Shown: piece by piece, positions 62,815 to 63,817 of the stretch
Position numbering within the stretch: the stretch's first letter is position 1
Layout of the letters: each line of letters opens with the position of its first letter
Assembly (NCBI GenBank): GCA_947625905.1
Contig: CANQQJ010000014.1
Span: 1-64,000, forward strand
Source of the DNA: an uncultured Clostridia bacterium
GTDB taxonomy: Bacteria > Bacillota > Clostridia > Monoglobales > Monoglobaceae
Direction of reading: 5' to 3'
DNA: 64,000 bases
Translations under genes and position numbers: made by a program
The notes under the pieces: generated by a model
The model's input: only the letters and a program-made list of their open reading frames with translations
What the model was told of the DNA's origin: nothing
Database searches by the model: none

Positions 62815-62843
62815 TTGACAAAAACGAAATAATAATATATAAT
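62815..62843 (+). promoter_or_regulatory. Perfect sigma-A promoter of the convergent small RNA
   Basis: TTGACA (62815-62820), 17-bp spacer and TATAAT (62838-62843), an exact consensus; the start is predicted near 62850. No open frame with a ribosome site follows. Confidence 0.85.
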
Positions 62844-62849
62844 AAACAT

Positions 62850-62950
62850 ACAAAAGAGAAACGGCAGAGCGTAAAAACGGTCAGCTGCTTCGGTAAGGTT
62901 AAAATCAACCGATCCTCGGCTGCTAAACTTCGGATCGGTTGTATTTTTTT
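62850..62950 (+). ncRNA. Small RNA convergent with a membrane-peptide gene (candidate type I antitoxin)
   Basis: The transcript predicted from the promoter at 62815 is about 100 nt and ends at an intrinsic terminator (stem 62906-62915 with 62932-62941, T7 tract 62944-62950). Its 3' half is complementary to the 3' untranslated region of the 28-residue peptide mRNA on the minus strand, and the two share the terminator stem. It carries no plausible coding frame. The layout matches convergent type I toxin-antitoxin loci; the pairing role is inference. Confidence 0.6.
62906..62950. terminator. Shared hairpin terminator of the small RNA and the peptide mRNA
   Basis: CAACCGATCC and GGATCGGTTG form a 10-bp stem with a 16-nt loop. 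The plus strand continues TATTTTTTT (strong). The minus strand continues ATTTTAA (weak). Confidence 0.8.
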
Positions 62951-63035
62951 ATTGCACAGGCTGTGCAAAAATCGCAAATAATACGATTATTACAAGCAGT
63001 GCAATGAAAATTTTGAAAGTAAAAGCTTTCATCAT
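62949..63035 (-). CDS. 28-residue hydrophobic peptide (candidate type I toxin)
   Basis: The ATG at 63035 follows AAGGCGGTGATGCG. The peptide starts MMKAFTFKIFIALLVIIVLF and ends AIFAQPVQ: a short basic N terminus, one strongly hydrophobic helix (about 9-24) and a short polar tail, as in membrane-acting type I toxins. A promoter (63208-63236) gives a leader of about 165 nt with a GCGGT-UAAU-ACCGC hairpin at its 5' end and a CTCAAA...TTTGAG hairpin (63059-63076) just before the ribosome site. The stop codon overlaps the terminator tract of the convergent small RNA. It does not clearly match TxpA/BsrG or Fst. Toxicity is not shown. Confidence 0.65.
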   Translation of the reverse strand: MMKAFTFKIFIALLVIIVLFAIFAQPVQ

Positions 63036-63207
63036 CGCATCACCGCCTTTCTGTCGGTCTCAAACACAAATTTGAGTGCTCGGAAAGGAATGAAGCAACC
63101 AACCGTCCTTACGTTTTGGCTCTGCCTTTTACAATCATGCGTTTTATTCGCACAATCGTGTTTCTCCGCGCGGAGTATCCGCACTTGCGGTATTAACCGC
63201 CATAAAT

Positions 63208-63236
63208 ATTATATCACCCTACAACAACTTTTGCAA
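63208..63236 (-). promoter_or_regulatory. Promoter of the 28-residue peptide mRNA
   Basis: TTGCAA (63236-63231), 17-bp spacer and TATAAT (63213-63208); start near 63201. Confidence 0.75.
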
Positions 63237-63269: not shown

Positions 63270-63420
63270 ATAAAAAACCGCCTTGATTTCTCAAAGCGGT
63301 ATAAAATATTACTGTTTGGCAGGCGTCCCATTCTCCTGCATCTCTCAGGGTTTTCACCCTTGTCATACCATCGGCGTGTGGACCGGACGTAATCCTCCAC
63401 CTCAAACAGCAACGTTATTA
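63270..63420 (-). ncRNA. Structured small RNA downstream of the PBECR2-like gene
   Basis: A transcript of about 150 nt is predicted from TTTACA-17-TAATAT (63456-63428, extended -10) or a second TATAAT (63422-63417) to a terminator (63300-63272: ACCGCTTTGA-GAAA-TCAAGGCGGT, then T6). The fold is closed by CTGTTTG/CAAACAG (63409-63403 with 63318-63312) and holds three helices: GTGGA/TCCAC with inner GGA/TCC, AGGGT-GAAA-ACCCT with a GNRA loop, and GCAGG/CCTGC. There is no open frame. I could not match it to SRP RNA, 6S RNA, T-box or a known riboswitch. It could be a free small RNA, a riboswitch for the downstream peptide mRNA, or an RNA antitoxin. Confidence 0.6.
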
Positions 63421-63439
63421 TATTGTTATATTAACACAT

Positions 63440-63817
63440 TTATTCCGATTTGTAAAGGACTTTTTTATTCTTTTTGAGTCTGTTCCACTCTTTTTCGTCA
63501 ATTTTCATAAATGTTATAATAGAATTTTTATATGTTTTATCATCACTCGGTGTAACCAATCGAATTATAGTTTTAAATTTTTCGTCAATCTCAAGTACAT
63601 GCTTTATAACAAGCGCTGTTTTAACTCGATTACCCGAAAAAATATAATCTGGTCTCTCTACAATTTCTTGCAAGTAAGCACCATAATTTATAAAATGTCC
63701 GGGATGGTTTTCTTCTATATGCGCGATGCGCTCGTCTGTGATAATAACATCATCGGTGATTATATCCTCTGTAATACATTTATATATTTCCTTGTTGATT
63801 TTTCCCACAAAGTTCAT
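63440..63817 (-). CDS. PBECR2-like (Barnase-EndoU-ColicinE5/D-RelE fold) nuclease, free-standing
   Basis: This 125-residue protein has the PBECR2 pattern: IITDERIAHIEENHPGHF with the conserved His, LQEIVERPDYIF, RVKTALVIKHV and KNSIITFMKI near the end. Such domains are usually RNase tips of phage or polymorphic toxins; here it is free-standing. It starts at an ATG after a weak GGCGGGA site, with a promoter at 63853-63880. The region is AT-rich and accessory-looking. A structured RNA gene begins at its stop codon. No protein antitoxin or immunity gene is adjacent within the window. Confidence 0.75.
   Translation of the reverse strand: MNFVGKINKEIYKCITEDIITDDVIITDERIAHIEENHPGHFINYGAYLQEIVERPDYIFSGNRVKTALVIKHVLEIDEKFKTIIRLVTPSDDKTYKNSIITFMKIDEKEWNRLKKNKKVLYKSE

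Follow-up and report, generated by a model that had tools for sequence, protein, structure and literature searches.

Does a 28-codon frame facing a small-RNA gene in a 64-kb window (the whole stretch of DNA analyzed here) encode the toxin of a type I toxin-antitoxin system, and how would its mRNA be kept inert? An earlier note on this DNA had suggested such a system, and the features on which it relied were located as listed in Table 1. The plus-strand TTGACA-17-TATAAT promoter carries 12 of 12 consensus bases, and the minus-strand TTGCAA-17-TATAAT carries 10 of 12, with a TG before the -10 box. The claimed small-RNA gene of ~100 nt ending in a terminator lies where it had been placed, and the predicted plus-strand RNA of ~101 nt (-30.9 kcal/mol) folds better than shuffled sequences (z -3.6). 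Likewise confirmed is the hydrophobic frame, with product MMKAFTFKIFIALLVIIVLFAIFAQPVQ and a stop codon that overlaps the small-RNA T tract; the minus-strand RNA, which had been described as having a hairpin-rich leader, also folds better than its shuffles (z -7.1). One claim required correction: a hairpin is indeed common to both RNAs, making their 3' ends complementary, but it is followed by a good T run in one direction only. The convergent type I layout is supported by the 3' complementarity, the small-RNA promoter and the conserved peptide described below, and, judged from these sequence features, the locus is very probably a convergent type I toxin-antitoxin system.

Table 1 Features of the putative toxin-antitoxin locus (positions in the 64-kb window)
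Feature	Position	Strand	Remark
Small-RNA promoter, TTGACA-17-TATAAT	62815..62843	+	exact consensus
Small RNA, putative antitoxin, ~101 nt	62850..62950	+	start deduced from promoter
Small-RNA 5' hairpin domain, GAGAAACGGCAGAGCGTAAAAACGGTCAGCTGCTTC	62856..62891	+	copy of toxin leader, same sense
Shared hairpin	62905..62941	both	small-RNA terminator; reverse complement lies in toxin-mRNA 3' UTR
CTAA in the shared-hairpin loop of the antitoxin	62923-62926		YUNR-like
T tract at small-RNA end	62944..62950	+	overlaps toxin stop codon 62951-62949
ORF of single-span hydrophobic peptide, putative toxin	62949..63035	-	28 codons; 27 from second ATG
Ribosome binding site, AAAGGCGG	63043..63050	-	family consensus AAAGGAGTGATG
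RBS-hiding hairpin, GCTTCATTCCTTTC ... GAAAGGCGGTGATGC	63037..63096	-	helix 6 of leader structure
Leader copy of the domain common with the small RNA, GGCAGAGCCAAAACGTAAGGACGGTTGGTTGCTTC	63092..63126	-	
Leader hairpin separating the two halves of the shared domain	63132..63158	-	helix 3
Leader GGAGAAAC, first half of the shared domain	63160..63167	-	
Two hairpins at 5' terminus of toxin-mRNA leader	63168..63200	-	helices 1 and 2
Toxin-mRNA promoter, TTGCAA-17-TATAAT	63208..63236	-	mRNA start deduced to lie near 63201

Just upstream of the toxin promoter, a skipping-rope RNA (RF02924, 46.5 bits) is found at window positions 63311-63410 on the minus strand, with an intrinsic terminator at 63300-63277; it also adjoins the small RNA in related species (L089, L094, L103). 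Upstream of this RNA, a 125-residue protein encoded at 63440-63817 (minus strand) matches PBECR2 (PF18810, E 2.5e-12), a phage-associated nuclease family.

The peptide is short and hydrophobic, has one membrane span and is conserved as a protein. It recurs in its own genome with seven matches (eight by profile search) and occurs in 8 of 11 genomes of the same genus; peptide and profile searches also reached a second genus of the same family, and a shorter form is present at seven places in one genome from another family of the order. On the conserved-frame check, named beforehand as a refuting test, 47 distinct copies have an intact frame under purifying selection, with a median omega of 0.39 and codon-position 1/2/3 entropies of 0.79/0.48/0.98 supporting this selection; pooled pN/pS across the 47 frames is 0.53 in the peptide frame versus 0.65 and 0.94 in two other frames. 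Ribosome site, leader structure and convergent small RNA are all kept along with the frame. The commonest residues of the family read MK-x3-FK-x3-ALLVIIVLFAIFA-xx-VQ, and a divergent subfamily (for example MKHWALKAAVMLFVIVIILIAFAPVVQ), missed by peptide search, was reached via the core of the small RNA. The claim that the peptide falls outside known toxin families holds, as no useful Pfam or NCBIfam match was obtained; neither the Fst_toxin (PF13955) nor the Hol_Tox profile (PF16935) matches it, and both families are absent from its own genome. Gram-positive type I toxins usually carry a lysine-rich tail; this peptide has no lysine-rich or charged tail. The peptide is a putative toxin that the small RNA would neutralize.

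Around 65 distinct copies of the small-RNA gene were identified in Monoglobus-like and other Clostridia. The 25-nt core occurs seven times in its own genome, always within the family, compared with zero occurrences in a backwards control. A 23-nt piece used alone retrieved 59 records, comprising named Monoglobus sp., rabbit-gut Clostridia MAGs with 'Lapin' in their isolate names and one Saccharibacillus; the window's named relatives are metagenome-assembled, mostly from rabbit gut. The Saccharibacillus hit (L055) was discarded as a chance match lacking promoter and peptide. Most loci found via the small-RNA core alone carry a convergent peptide. Model R1 matches the window at 62852-62949 with a rough E-value of 2e-19, the window copy being itself part of the model, and the small RNA has no Rfam match at gathering score. 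In an alignment of 64 copies, a near-invariant 5' domain is joined to the terminator hairpin by a linker that varies. The 5' hairpin is 99.6% paired, with changes that are one-sided only (G-C/G-U), and two pairs of the terminator show true double changes. The one-sided variants would produce A-C mismatches on the opposite strand, and selection therefore appears to act on the small-RNA strand. In one case, judged by eye, both arms of the closing stem have apparently changed in concert (GAA:UUC to GGA:UCC), namely in L164, a diverged copy from another family.

The two promoters differ consistently in strength. That of the antitoxin is exactly TTGACA/TATAAT (12/12) in 38 of 38 copies scored; the toxin promoter, at a mean of 9.7 of 12, is the weaker one in every copy of this set. 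The small-RNA terminator was not reported by an automatic terminator scan because its loop exceeds 8 nt. Next to the shared hairpin, the T run contains on average 7.1 T in 9 nt in the small-RNA direction versus 4.0 in the mRNA direction (37 copies), so that the toxin mRNA may plausibly read through. A toxin-strand hairpin, CGG..CCGUUUUU, was considered as terminator of the toxin gene and is not well supported, since common small-RNA variants yield A-C mismatches there and G-U pairs on the small-RNA strand.

For the toxin-mRNA leader, a structure of 45 pairs was derived from 38 leaders, 95% paired in this same alignment and hence biased towards the structure; the 22 pairs changed on both sides are stronger evidence than the paired percentage. 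None of 500 shuffles performed as well, and sliding the partners abolishes pairing. Helix 6, which hides the ribosome site, is 96.5% paired with five pairs changed on both sides, and both sides have changed in 8 of the 9 pairs of helix 3. In some copies, an inserted repeat has cost the leader its ribosome-site hairpin. Several loci from different species (L022, L027, L031, L032, L036, L045, L048, L098) have similar repeats, TAGCGAATAGGGCTCCCGCAAAGCG...AATCGC...GCGATTTTTTTGATAAGCGGCGC, in place of the SD-hiding hairpin, inserted at roughly corresponding leader positions. Such insert-like repeats, together with the many copies at different places, would suit a locus that is a repeat or mobile palindrome with an accidental ORF; this explanation is hardly credible given the codon-level selection, the hidden ribosome site with its leader covariation and a synteny common to several species, and the codon and structure tests in substance refute it. 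Nor did viral contigs, phages and plasmids, when searched, contain any match to the family.

Beyond what the earlier note had described, the small RNA contains a copy of the toxin leader: over its first 40–45 nt, it is similar to the leader in same-sense orientation. The mean same-sense z is 5.0 across 38 loci, a test from which promoters were excluded, 5.7 across 9 loci with other peptides and 6.4 across 6 loci of a divergent genome, with antisense control values of 0.3, 0.1 and -0.3 in the same three sets. Several lineages have a copy that scores far higher against its own leader than against leaders of other lineages (e.g. 15.9 versus at most 9.6, or 19.0 versus at most 12.0), and the likeness therefore looks maintained rather than just inherited; between closely related lineages, the difference between own and foreign leaders is small or absent. 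A par-like complementarity of the small-RNA 5' domain to the leader was rejected, with an antisense z of 0.3 and equal duplex energies for own and foreign partners. The leader motif CGGUUR is complementary to the hairpin arm YAACCG in most loci. Locus-specific pairing of these motifs was rejected by permutation (p 0.26 and 0.54), and only a family-level match is therefore claimed. In the open-access literature, no description of the small-RNA family or of the leader copy was found; for bsrG/SR4, the leader copy may already be known.

The bsrG/SR4 pair, taken from phage SPBc2 and located by an exact match to the BsrG sequence, served as a control. Within SR4, the bsrG leader is found again as a same-sense copy (z up to 8, as the best value of a sliding scan against mononucleotide shuffles), and in an in silico fold of a 297-nt bsrG mRNA model the 5' end pairs with the 3' end. 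The window locus shares with this B. subtilis SPbeta system the convergent genes, the 3' complementarity, a small membrane peptide (here a putative toxin), the same-sense leader copy in the antitoxin and an in silico 5'-3' fold of the mRNA, which here forms only with read-through. Unlike bsrG, a member of the TxpA/BsrG kind, its peptide has no Hol_Tox match. SR4, at 180 nt, is longer than the window small RNA and overlaps bsrG far more; bsrG has a separate terminator beyond the leader copy, whereas the window locus has a single shared hairpin and, unlike SR4, an antitoxin whose 5' end consists of the leader copy.

Similarly, Fst/par of pAD1 has convergent promoters, one shared hairpin at the 3' side, a hidden ribosome site and a 5' helix in the toxin RNA (PMC7472228). 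In par, DNA direct repeats (DRa/DRb) make the 5' parts of the RNAs complementary (PMC7472228), whereas those of the window locus are alike in the same sense (z 5.0; antisense z 0.3). The peptide differs from Fst in lacking an Fst_toxin match, a PXXXG motif and a charged tail; the bidirectional terminator of par has a possible counterpart in the shared hairpin of the window, whose T run is good on one strand only. With aapA/IsoA of Helicobacter and with hok/Sok, the locus has in common SD-hiding hairpins, a possible 5'-3' long-distance interaction and a multi-copy occurrence (PMC6733600); it deviates in the 3' position of its antitoxin, in its peptide and in a long-distance interaction that would require putative read-through. 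Convergent overlapping genes for small membrane peptides in many copies are also typical of Clostridioides difficile type I loci such as CD2517.1-RCd8 (PMC6563280). By their descriptions, the toxins of these loci are set apart from the window peptide by lysine-rich C termini, with several being 47–53 residues long and several residing in prophages (PMC6563280). The window locus thus resembles bsrG/SR4, par and aapA in parts and fails the Fst and Hol_Tox profiles and the par complementarity; for these reasons, and with the family undescribed in the open literature searched, it is filed, on sequence grounds, as a new variant among convergent type I toxin-antitoxin systems.

How would such a system operate? 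The minus-strand mRNA would encode a membrane peptide of 27–28 residues, its nascent leader hiding the ribosome site, and the stronger plus-strand promoter would produce the ~100-nt small RNA. Both RNAs would meet at the shared hairpin: the terminator hairpin of the small RNA, with its YUNR-like CTAA in the loop, is the reverse complement of the hairpin in the mRNA 3' UTR, which would permit loop-to-loop contact followed by zipping. In bsrG/SR4, contact begins at a YUNR loop (PMC7430163), and, by analogy to that pair and to txpA/RatA, the paired RNAs would lead to decay or silencing of the toxin mRNA. The leader copy adds a further element. A model of the window mRNA extended to 62872 or 62850 adopts a 5'-3' fold, whereas 5'-3' pairing of the shared domain is impossible if the model ends at the shared hairpin. 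We tentatively propose, as the likeliest explanation of the leader copy and yet slightly short of probable, that a read-through mRNA would carry the complement of its own leader at the 3' end, close 5' to 3' and stay inert until it is trimmed or the small RNA captures it.

The main rival to this proposal, which we rate as somewhat unlikely, keeps the type I pair and dispenses with 5'-3' pairing: the shared domain would bind a common host factor (a protein, RNase, ribosome or ligand), for which small RNA and toxin mRNA compete. It would account for a domain core that is near-invariant, more so than the peptide, for the recurrence of CGGUURGCC across toxin families, for a leader pairing with the hairpin arm that is not locus-specific and for orphan small RNAs conserved without a toxin. 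However, the leader and the small RNA diverge together from lineage to lineage, in some strongly, which a fixed factor does not require, and for bsrG the 5'-3' fold is seen in a model of a characterized transcript. A further version, which we consider improbable, regards the antitoxin as a toxin mRNA without its frame, reduced to leader domain and hairpin, that silences toxin mRNAs, including those of other loci, by acting as a decoy for the binding partner, of whatever kind, of the common leader domain. If this were true, one antitoxin design would serve many unrelated toxins, and orphan antitoxins would guard the cell in trans.

Small RNAs without a toxin do exist. At the site syntenic to that of the window, beside the skipping-rope RNA, three related species have lost the toxin promoter, the leader and most of the ORF and have kept the small RNA with its promoter; the junction is common to all three and spares the final codons of the ORF. 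This toxin-less small RNA is variable at 4 of 98 positions, compared with 62 of 478 in its flanks (p 0.009). A second one (L062, L067, L108) is identical in three species, with 0 of 101 variable positions versus 46 of 754 (p 0.004); it adjoins a transporter-like gene. Loss of the toxin with retention of the small RNA fits the usual toxin-antitoxin asymmetry, and the conservation of toxin-less small RNAs suggests some function in trans. In another locus (L170 / L131, contig C5 of G013), a small RNA of the family type adjoins a different convergent pair, with the peptide MDLNIIFILLVLIAILEIIKNIKK.

Related small RNAs reach well beyond this family of peptides. Model R2, built from ten small RNAs of related loci, matches in 94 of 391 Clostridia genomes and 56 of 222 genera (E up to 1e-3), and in 18 of 398 genomes across the phylum (E up to 1e-4), the E-values being rough in both cases. 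Upon reading 66 of these loci, a convergent hydrophobic ORF with ribosome site was present in 49; applied to controls, the same rule found one in 20 of 260 random and 1 of 36 mirror pieces. The leader copy recurs in these 49 loci with a mean same-sense z of 5.0 (36 above 3) and an antisense z of -0.1 (none above 3), although a few of the small RNAs extend into the -10 box, an inclusion that can raise single z values; CGGTT is found in 42 of the 49 leaders. None of 18 loci compared with Rfam had an RNA match at the small-RNA position. Two peptides beside related small RNAs exceed the Pfam cut-off of Hol_Tox (E 1.4e-7 and 2.7e-9). This family of putative holin-like toxins comprises known type I toxins, TxpA and BsrG usually being placed in it. 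Others are short peptides such as MEYVYIIIFMIVFITLIESIKK or MGNEYIIYFMIVLLLLVITIKK, most of them with no useful Pfam match. In one genome (G009, contig C1, 2362166-2363737), five related small-RNA genes are clustered within 1.6 kb, one of them adjoining MEYVYIIIFMIVFITLIESIKK and another MDYMYIIIFMIVFTCMIESIKK.

This diversity also bears on whether the peptide is a toxin at all. The missing charged tail and the many intact copies per genome would agree with a small membrane regulator or signal whose level is set by the small RNA. Yet three species have lost the toxin and kept the small RNA at one site, related small RNAs adjoin Hol_Tox peptides, and peptides vary widely by lineage while the RNA design stays constant, a pattern more in keeping with toxins than with a specific regulator; a non-toxin role is accordingly quite improbable in our estimate.

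Type I antitoxins share little sequence and are hard to find, whereas here one RNA design is directly searchable, and it reaches dozens of clostridial genera and toxins of several families. The leader copy provides a concrete, testable prediction on how the toxin mRNA may stay inert, and with the orphan antitoxins, protection in trans by such RNAs can be put to the test.
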